From Bacteroidales bacterium (GTDB taxonomy: Bacteria > Bacteroidota > Bacteroidia > Bacteroidales > VadinHA17): a DNA stretch of 33,804 nucleotides. Under the pieces are notes generated by a model. It did no database searches. It was not told where the DNA came from and saw nothing but the letters and a program-made list of their open reading frames with translations. Below are positions 7,076 to 11,025 of this stretch, piece by piece. Numbering within the stretch: position 1 is the first letter of the stretch; each line of letters opens with the position of its first letter. Location of the stretch: assembly GCA_030596125.1 (NCBI GenBank), contig JAUVKT010000019.1, forward strand, positions 1 to 33,804, read 5' to 3'. Both the position numbers and the translations under genes were made by a program.

Positions 7076-8728
7076 ATGATTAAAGAACGACTTATCGATT
7101 ATATCGAACAGAGTATTCGCCAGAACTGGGATATTGAAGCCCTTTCAGATTACCAGGGAAGTGGGTTTACGTATAAAGAGATTGCTGCAGGCATTCTGCG
7201 ATTACATATGATATTTAATGAGGCCGGAATTAAGGAGGGAGATAAAATATCCCTTATCGGTAAAAACTCTGCCAATTGGTGTACGGCTTACCTTGCGGCA
7301 ATAACGTACGGGGCAGTTATTGTACCTGTTTTGCCGGATTTTAAAATCGATGATCTGATAAATATTGTAAACCATTCCGATTCAAAGTTGTTGATAGTTG
7401 ATGAAAAAATCTGGGGAGGGATCGAGTATAAAAGCATTTCGTCCATCGAAAATGTTTTAATGCTTGAATCATTTGAATATATAACAGGAAAAGACGAAAA
7501 GGTTAAGTCAATGGCTGATGATATTGAAAACAGATTTATTGCCAAATATTCCGACCTGACTCCCGATAACATGAAATTTTCTGATATTGGAAATGATCAA
7601 TTAGCCGTTATAAGTTATACATCCGGCACAACCGGATTTTCAAAAGGAGTAATGATCCCACACAGGAGTCTTGCAGCCAATGTGAGATTTGCGCAGAATA
7701 ATATGCCTCTTAAGCCGGGAGATAAAATTGTCTCTTTCCTTCCTCTGGCACATACTTATGGATGCGCTTTTGAATTCCTGTTCCCGTTTACATACGGTTG
7801 TCATATTACAATACTTACAAAAACCCCGACACCGCAGATAATAATTCAGGCATTCAAGGAGATCAGGCCAAGACTTATCTTGTCGGTGCCTCTAGTAATA
7901 GAGAAAATATACAAAAAGCAGTTGCTTCCTGTAATATCTAAACCAACCATGAAAATACTTCTGGCAATTCCCGGAATAAACAGGATCATATTGAATAAGA
8001 TCAATCAGAAGCTGATTGCTACATTCGGAGGCAACTTTCATGAGATTGTTATCGGGGGTGCTGCCTTAAATACTGATGCTGAAAAATTCTTCAAGCTTTT
8101 GGGCTTCCCGTTTACAATTGGATATGGAATGACCGAATGCGGACCATTGATCAGCTATGCTTCGGCAGCTACAACTAAGCTTGAAGCATCAGGACGACAA
8201 GTTGATACTCTTGAGGTTACAATTGATTCGGGTGATCCTCAAAACGAAGTGGGTGAAATAATCCTCAGGGGTGATAATGTAATGATGGGCTATTACAAAA
8301 ATGATGAAGCAACAGCCGAGGTGATTGACAAGGATGGCTGGATGCATACCGGCGACCTTGGTGTAATAGATAAGGAGGGTAACATATTTATTAAGGGAAG
8401 ATGTAAAAGCATGCTTCTAGGACCCTCAGGAAAGAATATTTATCCTGAAGAGATAGAGTCACTGATTAATAACCAGAACTATATTGCAGAATCGGTGGTG
8501 ATTTCAGAAGAAGACAGACTGGTAGCTCTGGTATATCCTGATTTTGAGCACATGAAAAAAGATAGCATAAAAGAGGAGGACCTGCCAGGCCTTTATGAGC
8601 AGATAAAAAATGATATAAACCAGCGGCTGGCATCGTATATGAATATCACAAAAATAGAGATTCATCCTGAGGAGTTTGTTAAGACACCCAAGCGAAACGT
8701 TAAAAGATTTCTCTACACAAAAGATTAA
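7076..8728 (+). CDS. AMP-binding acyl-CoA synthetase / ligase
   Basis: A member of the ANL superfamily that activates a carboxylic acid, probably a long-chain fatty acid, with ATP to an acyl-adenylate and then loads CoA. The P-loop YTSGTTGFSKG is at residues 181-191. The A5 motif YGMTECGPL lies in the middle-to-late part, and the A7/A8 region GWMHTGDLGVIDKEGNIFIKG follows. The C-terminal swinging domain carries GKNIYPEEIE and ends with KTPKRNVKRFLY. At 550 residues it matches the Bacteroidota long-chain acyl-CoA ligases. No signal peptide; likely cytoplasmic or membrane-associated. ispD starts 13 nt after its stop, so the two are probably cotranscribed. Confidence 0.88.
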   Translation: MIKERLIDYIEQSIRQNWDIEALSDYQGSGFTYKEIAAGILRLHMIFNEAGIKEGDKISLIGKNSANWCTAYLAAITYGAVIVPVLPDFKIDDLINIVNHSDSKLLIVDEKIWGGIEYKSISSIENVLMLESFEYITGKDEKVKSMADDIENRFIAKYSDLTPDNMKFSDIGNDQLAVISYTSGTTGFSKGVMIPHRSLAANVRFAQNNMPLKPGDKIVSFLPLAHTYGCAFEFLFPFTYGCHITILTKTPTPQIIIQAFKEIRPRLILSVPLVIEKIYKKQLLPVISKPTMKILLAIPGINRIILNKINQKLIATFGGNFHEIVIGGAALNTDAEKFFKLLGFPFTIGYGMTECGPLISYASAATTKLEASGRQVDTLEVTIDSGDPQNEVGEIILRGDNVMMGYYKNDEATAEVIDKDGWMHTGDLGVIDKEGNIFIKGRCKSMLLGPSGKNIYPEEIESLINNQNYIAESVVISEEDRLVALVYPDFEHMKKDSIKEEDLPGLYEQIKNDINQRLASYMNITKIEIHPEEFVKTPKRNVKRFLYTKD

Positions 8729-8741
8729 CAGATTGAAAAAA

Positions 8742-9428
8742 ATGCAGAAAGATCTGAAGAAATATGTAATTATTGTTGCAGGGGGAATTGGAAAACGAAT
8801 GGACAGCCCTATTCCGAAACAATTTATCCTGCTTGGAGGATTACCCCTGATAATGTATACAATAAACAGGTTCAGGGAGTATGATAGCGGGATAAAAATT
8901 GTAGTTGTTCTGCCCGAACCGGAGATCGGAAGGTGGAACAGTTTATGCAGGCAATATAGTTTCAAGCCTGAACATATTGTAACAGGGGGAGGAGAAAGGC
9001 GATACTTTTCGGTAAAGAATGGTTTGCAATATGTTAATGAGGAGTCGCTCGTTGCAGTACACGATGGAGTCAGGCCACTGGTAAGTACAGGAACCATCAA
9101 ACGCTGCTTTGACATGGCAGCCCTGAAGGGCAATGCTGTTCCTGTAATTGAACCGTCAGAGTCGGTTCGTGAGGTAGATGTGAAAGGGATTAACAGGCGT
9201 CTTGACAGAGAAAAAATTCGATTAGTGCAAACACCACAGGTCTTCAGGTCTGATCTGTTGCTCAGGGCTTATAATAGCAAATATTCACCATCATATACCG
9301 ACGATGCTACTGTTGTTGAACAGCTTGGTGTGAATATAAACCTTGTTCCGGGGAATAGGGAAAACATTAAGATAACGACACCGAAAGACATGGTGATCGC
9401 TGAGGCGATTATAGGAATAGAAAGGTAA
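8742..9428 (+). CDS. ispD: 2-C-methyl-D-erythritol 4-phosphate cytidylyltransferase
   Basis: Third step of the MEP pathway to isoprenoids: CTP plus MEP gives CDP-ME, in the cytoplasm. The N-terminal nucleotide-binding motif is present as AGGIGKRMDSPIPKQF, followed by the CTP-contact region TGGGERRYFSVKNGL and the conserved VAVHDGVRPLVS. Near the C-terminus are RLVQTPQVFRSDLL and YTDDATVVEQLG. The ATG at 8742 gives 228 residues, the usual IspD length; the longer open frame beginning at 8676 overlaps the acyl-CoA ligase and is rejected. The last bases run into the repeat island at 9430. Confidence 0.93.
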   Translation: MQKDLKKYVIIVAGGIGKRMDSPIPKQFILLGGLPLIMYTINRFREYDSGIKIVVVLPEPEIGRWNSLCRQYSFKPEHIVTGGGERRYFSVKNGLQYVNEESLVAVHDGVRPLVSTGTIKRCFDMAALKGNAVPVIEPSESVREVDVKGINRRLDREKIRLVQTPQVFRSDLLLRAYNSKYSPSYTDDATVVEQLGVNINLVPGNRENIKITTPKDMVIAEAIIGIER

Positions 9429-9489
9429 AAGGCATAGGGCGTAAGGCGTAGGGTGGAGTTGAGCAGGTGATTTGGGAATAACGAACTTT
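9429..9489 (+). repeat. Short GGCGTAAGGCGTAGGG tandem stretch
   Basis: Just after the ispD stop the sequence reads as overlapping copies of a GGCATAGGGCGTA-like unit. It leads directly into the first palindromic element of the repeat island. No coding potential. Confidence 0.4.
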
Positions 9490-9539
9490 CCCCTCCTTTT
9501 CAAAGGAGGGGTGTCCGGCGGTAGCCGGACGGGGTGGTT
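9490..9539 (+). repeat. Palindromic element A of the repeat island (+ orientation, CCGG core)
   Basis: A 50-nt element made of an outer hairpin (CCCCTCC, CAAAGGAGGGG), a 16-nt palindromic core TCCGGCGGTAGCCGGA at 9513-9528 and a tail CGGGGTGGTT. Elements B, C and D nearby share the outer parts. It lies 10 nt before the start of the DUF559 pseudogene. Confidence 0.88.
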
Positions 9540-9549
9540 AGAAATTATT

Positions 9550-9909
9550 ATGGTACAAAAATCCAACATAAAATCTCTTAAGGCTAACAGAAAAGCACTA
9601 AGAAACAAATCTACATCAGCCGAAGCCGAGCTCTGAAAACACCTAAAAGGAAAACAGTTAGAGGGTAATAAATTCCGGCGCCAACATAGCATTAATAAAT
9701 TTATTGTTGATTTCTATTGTTCATCTGAAAGGCTGATAATTGAGCTAGACGGAGATTATCATGGGGATTATATTCAGATTCAGAAAGACGAACAAAGAGA
9801 TAAGGAGTTAAAGAAGCTTGGTTATACTGTGTTAAGGTTTGAGAACAGATTTGTTTTTCAGGATTTGGAATGGGTAAAAAAGGAAATTATTTCGGCGTTT
9901 AGGTCATAA
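9550..9909 (+). pseudogene. DUF559 (Vsr-like) endonuclease domain gene with in-frame TGA
   Basis: The frame reads 28 codons (MVQKSNIKSLKANRKALRNK and on), then TGA at 9634-9636, then 90 more codons to TAA. After the stop the DUF559 signature is intact: KFRRQHSINKFIVDFYC, LIIELDGDYH with the PD-(D/E)xK-type acidic residues (Asp54, Glu65, Asp67), DEQRDKELKKLGYTVLRFEN, and a C-terminal VKKEIIS. The expected residue at the TGA is Trp (family pattern ELLWxxLRxxQLxGxKFRRQ), so one TGG to TGA change explains it. The rest of the window uses TGG for Trp and TGA as a normal stop, so this is a nonsense mutation, not recoding. The gene lies exactly between palindromic elements A and B; its TAA shares two bases with element B. 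Intact relatives are small single-domain nucleases of unclear role. Confidence 0.85.
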
Positions 9910-9957
9910 CCACCCCGTCACGCTTGAGCGTGCCACCCCTCCTTTGAAAAGGAGGGG
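9908..9957 (-). repeat. Palindromic element B of the repeat island (- orientation, CACGC core)
   Basis: The reverse complement has the same first 24 and last 10 nt as element A, but the 16-nt core is GCACGCTCAAGCGTGA instead of TCCGGCGGTAGCCGGA. Both cores are palindromic. It begins within the stop codon of the DUF559 frame. Confidence 0.88.
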
Positions 9958-9992
9958 AAATCAGTTTATGCTTTTATCATTTAGATTCTTAT

Positions 9993-10031
9993 CACCCCGT
10001 CACGCTTGAGCGTGCCACCCCTCCTTTTCGG
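9993..10031 (-). repeat. Truncated palindromic element C (- orientation, CACGC core)
   Basis: Carries CACCCCGTCACGCTTGAGCG and the following CCACCCCTCCTTTTC, then diverges before completing the outer hairpin. It has the same core as element B. Confidence 0.8.
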
Positions 10032-10065
10032 AAAGCAGGAAGGAATTTGGAAATAACAGCACTTT

Positions 10066-10115
10066 CCCCTCCTTTTTAAAGGAGGGGTGTCCGGCGGTAG
10101 CCGGACGGGGTGGTT
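10066..10115 (+). repeat. Palindromic element D (+ orientation, CCGG core)
   Basis: Almost identical to element A, with the outer loop TTTTTAAA in place of TTTTCAAA and the same CCGGCGGTAGCCGG core. It closes the island, about 150 nt before the DUF4197 gene. The stretch 10116-10263 after it is AT-rich and holds no gene; it has two AACCGGTT-like words but no clear promoter. Confidence 0.85.
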
Positions 10116-10263: not shown

Positions 10264-11025
10264 ATGACCATGAAAAAAAAATTATTAGCTCTGTTAATTG
10301 TTGTCACAATAGCATTTGCATCGTGTGCAGAACTTATGAAAACCCTTGAAAGTGTAACAACCGAGATTCCGCTAACCGAAGCTGAAGTGGCTGAAGGATT
10401 AAAAGAGGCCCTTATAACAGGTGCCAGGAATTCTGCCTCAAGACTTGGAGCAGAGAACGGATATTTTGGTGATGAGGTAATAAAAATATTCCTGCCCGAA
10501 GAGGCACATGTTATAGTTGAAAATATCTCCAGGTTGCCGGGAGGAGAAGAGCTTGTTCAGGATGTAATTCTAAGTATTAACCGTGCAGCTGAAGATGCAG
10601 CCAGGGATGTGGCACCTATATTTGTCGGAAGCGTAAGACAGATGACAATAGGTGATGCATTCGGGATATTAAATGGTGAAGATGATGCTGCTACCCAATA
10701 TTTGCACGGGACTACCTATAATGAGCTGTTTAATCTATATAGCCCGAAAATACAGATATCAATTGCAAAGCCACTTATTGGAAACATTTCGGCACAGGAT
10801 TCATGGGATGCCCTTACAGAGAAGTGGAATAAAATAGCAAATACAATTGCCGGAAAGATTGCCGGACTTCAACCTGTTGAAACAGACCTTGCCGATTATT
10901 TAACTCACAAAGCCCTTGACGGAATGTTTATCAAGGTGGCGGAAGAGGAATTCAAAATCAGAAAAGAAGTTAGTGCACGCATATCTCCATTACTACAAAA
11001 GGTATTCGGAAGTCTCGATAATTAA
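10264..11025 (+). CDS. DUF4197 domain lipoprotein
   Basis: A 253-residue protein with a lipoprotein signal peptide (KKKLLALLIVVTIAFASC, lipobox Cys21). The mature part fits DUF4197: GLKEALITGARNSASRLG near residues 45-62, IKIFLPEE, then AAEDAARDVAPIFVGSVRQMTIGDAFGIL, TTYNELFNLYSPKI and LTHKALDGMFIKVAEEE. The family is widespread in Gram-negative bacteria and its function is unknown; the location should be periplasmic, lipid-anchored. The start could be the ATG at 10264 or at 10270; the first reads MTMKKKLL. The first 24 nt resemble the short leader ORFs upstream of 11071, 14595 and 33317 (20 of 24 positions). Confidence 0.85.
   Translation: MTMKKKLLALLIVVTIAFASCAELMKTLESVTTEIPLTEAEVAEGLKEALITGARNSASRLGAENGYFGDEVIKIFLPEEAHVIVENISRLPGGEELVQDVILSINRAAEDAARDVAPIFVGSVRQMTIGDAFGILNGEDDAATQYLHGTTYNELFNLYSPKIQISIAKPLIGNISAQDSWDALTEKWNKIANTIAGKIAGLQPVETDLADYLTHKALDGMFIKVAEEEFKIRKEVSARISPLLQKVFGSLDN

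Follow-up and report, generated by a model that had tools for sequence, protein, structure and literature searches.

DUF559 nuclease genes bounded by triplex-type repeats: a candidate class of selfish elements in bacteria

A decayed nuclease gene and its repeats in a Bacteroidales genome

The window, that is, the whole 33.8-kb stretch of Bacteroidales DNA analyzed here, contains a small frame of the DUF559 (YcjD-type) nuclease family (9550..9909, plus strand, 119 codons) located between ispD (8676..9428, plus strand; IspD, PF01128; an inner ATG is a possible true start) and a gene of the DUF4197 family (10264..11025, plus strand; PF13852), which served as the left and right borders, respectively, for the empty-site comparison described below. 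As stated in a preliminary description of this locus, four copies of a palindromic element surround the nuclease frame. Three of these, A (9490..9539, plus strand), B (9908..9957, minus strand) and D (10066..10115, plus strand), are intact, with a length of 50 bp each, and the fourth, C (9993..10027, minus strand), is decayed: its third arm, second hairpin and purine (R) arm are kept, whereas the outer pyrimidine (Y) arm is mutated and does not pair, and this copy is missed by the strict detector of such units. Repeats A and D are almost the same (98% identity over 55 nt), and A and B are 85% complementary over 54 nt. The tight packing noted previously is also borne out by the coordinates, with the ATG of the nuclease frame at 9550, 10 nt past the end of repeat A, and the stop codon (9907-9909) overlapped by the third arm of repeat B, which starts at 9908. 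The strict detector identified three units in the window, all within one 626-bp stretch, and none in 60 dinucleotide-preserving shuffles of the window. The element pattern has five matches in the whole 2.70-Mb genome, of which three are at this locus, and the only DUF559 match in this genome is the one described here. Just 5' of repeat A, at 9430-9456, there is a stretch of GGCGTAAGGCGTAGGG-like heptamers that recurs on other contigs of this genome (C53, C17, C55, C125 and C81); these heptamers are a second repeat family, unrelated to the units around the nuclease gene.

The framed gene matches PF04480 with an E-value of 3.9e-34 (117 bits, with a cut-off of 20.6), provided that one TGA is read through. 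This TGA is codon 29 (9634-9636), which corresponds to a conserved Trp in the alignment, so the frame is not intact and the nuclease gene of the window is dead, a feature that goes beyond the preliminary description, as do the triplex nature of the repeats and the presence of the same package inside essential genes, both discussed below. The structural model of the read-through frame (pLDDT 87) is closest, in a Foldseek search, to the endonuclease-like N. gonorrhoeae protein 3hrl (E 2.8e-8), followed by 3r3p, the catalytic domain of the homing endonuclease I-Bth0305I (E 3.9e-5 with Foldseek and 5.7e-7 in a profile comparison) and then, mitoribosome chains aside, by the mismatch endonuclease Vsr (1vsr, E 0.014). 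A Pfam scan of the framed gene yielded only DUF559 and a sub-cut-off match to MTES_1575, with neither PF03852 (Vsr) nor a HuH tyrosine transposase among the matches, and the score for the Vsr model TIGR00632 was 16.9 bits against a cut-off of 97.85. Thus, the fold is shared with Vsr, and the difference lies in the missing PF03852 match and in the vsr loci themselves, which are free of units (see below). Previously, YcjD has been assigned to the PD-(D/E)XK superfamily with a Vsr-detecting profile (PMC1189080), and the EDxHD enzymes have been described as one homing endonuclease family (PMC3943268). The DUF559 protein VsrA of Caulobacter is responsible for the SOS response upon loss of a solitary cytosine methylase (PMC12907096), which indicates that members of DUF559 can be genotoxic.

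The location of A immediately before the ATG and of B at the stop codon would also suit a purely regulatory role, in which the units would control the nuclease gene as operators, terminators or attenuators. However, matches to the repeat pattern are found far from DUF559 in many genomes, the in-gene copies described below lie inside other coding frames, and earlier work on the related PIT/BoxC repeats, as reported in PMC4666352, found no promoter or terminator activity. A regulatory role is therefore very hard to credit as the explanation of this arrangement.

Triplex code of the units and their clustering around DUF559

In the plus orientation, a unit comprises a pyrimidine arm, separated by a short loop from its purine complement, and a third arm that follows after a second loop. 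The Y and R arms of repeat A form the hairpin 9490-9511, which is followed by a 19-nt second loop with a small hairpin (TCCGGC..GCCGGA) and by the third arm, GGGGTGGTT. The purine arm ends in AAAGGAGGGG, and the third arm is its mirror image, with T replacing the mirror's A; judged by their letters, these arms match the G.GC and T.AT code of a putative R.RY intrastrand triplex. The mirror third-arm code (G.GC, A/T.AT) is satisfied by A, B and D, and the small extra hairpin in the 19-nt second loop differs among genomes. Within 400 bp of DUF559 genes, we found 232 Y/R hairpins, which are present at 101 of 120 loci. In 209 of these, the third arm shows at least 85% agreement with the mirror code (147 are perfect), compared with 84 for the direct-repeat code. 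Among the 225 hairpins with asymmetric arms, the mirror code fits better in 184 and the direct code in 11, with 30 ties, and 203 reach the 85% level, as against 20 of 225 when the flanks are shuffled. Second loops elsewhere are most commonly 1-5 nt long (mode 3 nt), compared with 19 nt in the window.

Given these mirror-code third arms, the units belong to the class of the BoxC or PIT repeats of Escherichia coli, which were later described as the intrastrand triplex motifs TM_ECO (Holder et al., 2015; PMC4666352). Such repeats of E. coli have been on record since the 1990s. For TM_ECO, triplex formation in vitro has been published, and this motif alone has been counted in 262 proteobacterial genomes; the same paper reports no mobility gene in TM_ECO contexts and names no partner enzyme (PMC4666352). 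The similarity extends to the order of the arms (Y arm, R arm, mirror third arm), to the scattered intergenic copies, some of which form inverted pairs (PMC4666352), and to the BoxC-type unit that adjoins E. coli ycjD, whereas the second loop of the window, with its 19 nt and extra hairpin, exceeds the 1-6 nt that the ITxF search rule allows for loops (PMC4666352). Among the open-access papers searched, judging from their titles, the beginnings of their abstracts and the matching passages, we found none that links DUF559 or ycjD with BoxC, PIT or triplex repeats.

The association of units and nuclease was assessed at 80 DUF559 loci in named genomes of many phyla, picked by protein similarity alone. 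The density of strict units at these loci is 4.79 per kb within 150 bp of DUF559, 1.39 at 150-300 bp and 0.64 at 300-500 bp, and drops to 0.17 at 0.5-1 kb and 0.07-0.09 beyond (0.072 per kb at 4-8 kb), that is, units are enriched approximately 60-fold near the gene and are at background density within about 1 kb. At least one unit lies within 300 bp of DUF559 in 72 of the 80 loci, and 41 have units on both sides. In the window's own phylum, a unit lies no more than 300 bp from DUF559 in 30 of 40 loci, with a density of 4.27 per kb within 150 bp compared with 0.01-0.03 per kb beyond 2 kb; 39 of the 40 loci are hits in frames shorter than 300 aa taken in rank order, with long frames and one contig-end hit passed over, and the remaining one, a 699-aa frame (L089, genome G131), was picked for its already known repeats, so that 29 of 39 loci have a unit, 12 of them on both sides, when it is left out. 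In 30 loci from the phylum search itself, a unit is found near 17 of the 19 standalone DUF559 genes and near 10 of the 11 DUF559 domains in long frames. The latter group had been considered as a negative control and was rejected because it carries units as well; this failure led to the detection of the in-frame insertions described below, and the control was replaced by Vsr (PF03852), for which none of 30 loci from the same 198 genomes of the phylum has a unit within 300 bp and no unit was detected in 96 kb. A lack of enrichment beside the gene, with repeats equally common without it, is the outcome that the preliminary description had set against its own proposal, and neither the steep gradient around DUF559 nor the empty Vsr loci conform to it.

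Of the units nearest to DUF559, 76 of 113 and 33 of 43 are oriented inward, and outward-pointing units occur with the guests of methionine synthase (MetH) and in several cases in leucyl-tRNA synthetase (LeuRS) and RecG, so that inward orientation is a preference rather than a rule. Cassettes without a detected unit number 8 of 80, 10 of 40, 2 of 19 and, among the in-gene cassettes, 3 of 20, in counts made with a strict detector that demands perfect stems of at least 7 bp and passes over some recognizable units, such as those in Pontibacter (L107, L128 and L155). The left and right units of one cassette have a similarity of 0.59, compared with 0.11 between cassettes of the same genome (p 8e-6; 22 cassettes in the 8 genomes with at least two, 10 vs 51 pairs, which are not independent of each other). 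The like units of each cassette point to cognate nuclease-unit pairs and count against a general hotspot, in which DUF559 genes dispersed by some other route would land in, or be carried between, triplex repeats prone to breakage and recombination. Holder et al. (2015; PMC4666352) report that TM_ECO loci are rearranged more often than control sites, which is in line with a hotspot. Nevertheless, Vsr, another small endonuclease family, is not found next to units, each cassette has its own matched pair, and the density of units is already at background within about 1 kb, and accordingly DUF559 appears to be an improbable passenger of such hotspots.

Across genomes, repeats and DUF559 co-occur, in agreement with the link that had been proposed for this locus. 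Among 198 genomes of the phylum, a strong DUF559 match (best E-value of 1e-12 or lower, 84 genomes; another 25, with weaker matches, were scored as lacking it) is present in 17 of the 21 genomes with the window-type pattern and in 67 of the 177 others (p 2.5e-4), where the 21 include probable chance matches in coding sequence in G052, G167 and G179. For a second pattern, of the GGAGAGGG type, the respective numbers in the same genomes are 36 of 55 and 48 of 143 (p 5.8e-5). Abundant repeats with no strong DUF559 detected are found in G022 (20 copies), G162 (15), G001 (12) and G095 (6). One genome of the phylum, G148, encompasses 10 DUF559 matches.

The preliminary description went on to compare the locus to a REP-like cassette. 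The linkage of repeats and nuclease implied by this comparison stands, as the 72 of 80 loci attest; the repeats themselves, however, are triplex motifs, and there is no RAYT in the cassette. The similarity to the REP/RAYT systems (REPtrons) consists in the layout, in which one small gene for a DNA-processing enzyme lies between palindromic units that also occur as scattered solo copies elsewhere in the genome (see PMC3733652). In contrast, the cassette encodes a nuclease with the Vsr fold instead of a HuH tyrosine transposase, and its units are triplex motifs that lack a GTAG foot; the only GTAG sequences are those within the inner loop of A and D. The sequence CGTC..GCCA in the inner hairpin of B prompted a comparison with the CGTC-tagged REPs, palindromes that likewise have no known transposase and whose hosts include Bacteroidetes and alpha-proteobacteria (Di Nocera et al., 2013; PMC3733652). 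This link was rejected: a simple pattern for a CGTC..CCA-type element (CGTC foot, stem starting with AT, CCA tail) gave no match within 400 bp of DUF559 in any of the 80 loci.

Empty sites and in-frame guests

The gap between ispD and the DUF4197 gene is 835 bp long in the window, compared with approximately 67-238 bp, without units, in G228, G214, G227, G198 and G203; these are the five loci with both neighbors among nine that were compared, the loci without the left neighbor (L171-L174) being left uncounted. Two genomes of the same family contain an intact cassette elsewhere. In G222, it consists of a 127-aa frame with two identical units and a third one, and in G227, of a 119-aa frame with approximately 70% DNA identity to that of the window and a unit that overlaps the stop codon, like repeat B. 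Thus, G227 lacks the cassette between ispD and the DUF4197 gene and has an intact copy at another site, so that the empty site and a copy are present in one genome. In the comparisons of filled and empty sites, the empty sites are approximately 64-84% identical, with borders in variable linkers or spacers, and at the sites compared we found neither a clean target duplication nor an exact junction. The stretch in the window is probably a decayed copy of a minimal selfish element whose own nuclease gene is dead.

Among 150 listed DUF559 matches, 31 are located in open frames of at least 250 aa, including 24 in frames of at least 600 aa. We examined 20 of the latter, of which 17 have a unit within 300 bp and 9 have units on both sides; the far flanks contain 8 units in 120 kb. 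The 20 hosts are LeuRS (6 cases, at two sites), HsdR (3), MetH (2), RecG (2), Type ISP (2), other methylases (2), a UvrD-like helicase, a weak PglX-like protein and an unnamed protein (one each). In MetH, the guest occupies the linker before the B12 domain in G035, G074, G269 and G273; the same linker is short in 11 of 12 other loci and is longer, and free of units, in G132. The translation of the MetH linker of L253 suggested a scar of a unit, and this candidate was rejected because the detector finds no unit there. The LeuRS guest of G103 is located in a loop of the editing domain which, among 14 relatives, is short in 11, slightly longer in one, and holds another repeat-like insert in one and a decayed DUF559-like insert in one. 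The DUF559-like insert (L313, G274) has seemingly lost the conserved catalytic residues and, judging from its residues, looks like a retired or domesticated guest domain. In L305 (G277), the same loop contains a different in-frame repeat-like peptide, MTSEMLKLVQHDETERHSELNSESN, so that other repeats may also find a tolerated landing site there. A further observation comes from Pseudanabaena, where DUF559 and several triplex-like units are included in frame in a 1142-aa protein-coding frame (L104, 6390-9818) that resembles a methylase on visual inspection.

In a FastTree phylogeny of 143 sequences, the four MetH guests form one clade (support 99), as do two RecG guests (90) and two HsdR guests (99; the tree labels cover two of the three HsdR guests, the third, L238, being unlabeled), whereas the LeuRS guests of one site are not grouped with support in the same tree (46 and 23). 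The nucleases residing in MetH differ by dN of 0.21-0.30, with dS of 1.2-1.4 in two pairs and saturated in four, a pattern of substitutions that appears compatible with purifying selection. A scan of the 20 in-gene host proteins with Pfam or NCBIfam listed no intein families. The guests share with the EDxHD homing endonuclease I-Bth0305I the catalytic fold and the occupation of a single position in a host gene across several genomes, with that position empty in others; they differ from it in that, in the scanned hosts, they are not accompanied by an intein and are flanked by triplex repeats, and in that the 119-aa frame has no extra DNA-binding domain. Rickettsia palindromic elements (RPE) are repeats inserted in frame in protein-coding genes, like the guests described here; to our knowledge, RPEs carry no nuclease gene, unlike the DUF559 cassettes. 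By these tests, the system resembles REP/RAYT in layout and a homing endonuclease in its enzyme and site behavior, and belongs to neither.

E. coli ycjD, BoxC repeats and the proposed mode of spread

A stretch that consists of ycjD, the DUF559 gene of E. coli, and the adjoining BoxC-type unit is present in 3,364 of 5,426 E. coli genomes. In evenly spaced rows of this set (the plasmid row H160 was dropped), the median number of unit places per chromosome is 20 (13-29) in 37 genomes with ycjD and 8 (1-21) in 22 genomes without it (p 1e-8), a comparison in which phylogroup is a confounder. The exceptions among the genomes without ycjD include an O157:H7 row with 12 places and another row with 21. 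Strains 55989 and IHE3034 belong to phylogroups B1 and B2, respectively. Holder et al. (2015; PMC4666352) counted 29 TM_ECO in the former strain and a single one in the latter. The sapF-ycjD-fabI region was considered as an empty-site pair and rejected because strains without ycjD carry other genes there, which have been identified as the eef efflux operon (PMC12817139); in many strains, ycjD stands at the place of the eefRABCD operon between sapF and fabI. In the recA-recX spacer, H240 (L263) has a variable stretch of approximately 190 bp, with one BoxC unit, one decayed unit and other sequence, as opposed to 17 bp. The approximately 190-bp stretch is absent from a derivative of K-12 MG1655, from an O157:H7 strain and from another strain (L268-L270), and no target duplication was seen at this site; given that MG1655 itself lacks the stretch, the presence of ycjD does not decide this case. 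Between alx and sstT, the ST131 strain EC958 (L271) has one hybrid hairpin, H240 (L256), which has ycjD, has an inverted pair of BoxC units, and the sequence of strain STEC719 at this site is a different one; ycjD is absent from a second ST131 strain, 5392.

Some of these observations would also be expected if the DUF559 nuclease served in repair, either by resolving hairpins or triplexes where forks have stalled or by restoring damaged units through conversion, with the gene and its substrates co-inherited as a block. The Vsr-like fold of the nuclease model and the SOS response caused by VsrA in the Caulobacter methylase mutant (PMC12907096) are in line with such a function, and so are the smaller number of units in the sampled genomes without ycjD and the alx-sstT pair, reduced to one hybrid hairpin in EC958 and kept in full by H240, with ycjD missing in ST131 strain 5392. 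However, a general repair enzyme needs neither to be framed by its substrate nor to occupy many unrelated sites, let alone to be inserted in frame in LeuRS and MetH. As the whole explanation, repair appears unlikely, although the roles of a guardian and of a mover are not mutually exclusive.

We consider it quite probable that the nuclease and its cognate triplex ends constitute one selfish element that is spread or maintained through break repair. Under this scenario, a small Vsr-fold (EDxHD-type) nuclease of the DUF559/YcjD family would be bounded by its own three-armed units, which could fold as a hairpin and as an R.RY triplex. The nuclease would recognize these units, perhaps when they are folded out as single strands during replication, and would cut at the units or at a target that lacks them, and the host break repair machinery would then copy the cassette or a lone unit into the gap. 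Scattered cassettes, solo and paired units, and in-frame insertions in loops of essential proteins would be the outcome. The comparisons above show that units and nuclease are associated, that the units follow the triplex code and are matched within each cassette, and that cassettes are inserted at scattered sites and in frame in genes. From the anatomy of the cassettes and the relationship to homing endonucleases, we infer the cutting, the recognition of the units by the nuclease and the route of copying; counted against this mechanism is that a hydrolytic nuclease alone cannot join DNA. The suggestion in the preliminary description that the nuclease moves, fixes or binds the repeats has the same inferred standing, and this hedged interpretation is supported by the present analysis.

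A broader proposal, for which we see the case as evenly balanced, is that DUF559 genes with triplex units represent a separate pan-bacterial class of mobile elements that would use triplex-capable DNA as an end or target signal, reside between genes or as splicing-free in-frame guests in essential enzymes, and move by nuclease-primed copying. The BoxC/PIT/TM repeats, including those of K-12, would then be non-autonomous offspring of such elements, and E. coli YcjD would be the autonomous partner. If true, this would be, as far as we know, the first selfish element with triplex-capable repeats as its ends. The findings provide a candidate partner for a repeat family without a known agent of spread, and given that this partner is present in K-12, the question can be tested there. 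They also suggest a role for the common DUF559 family, which is of unknown function and is represented in 84 of the 198 genomes, and imply that DUF559 domains in LeuRS, MetH and RecG are to be read as guests rather than as functional fusions.
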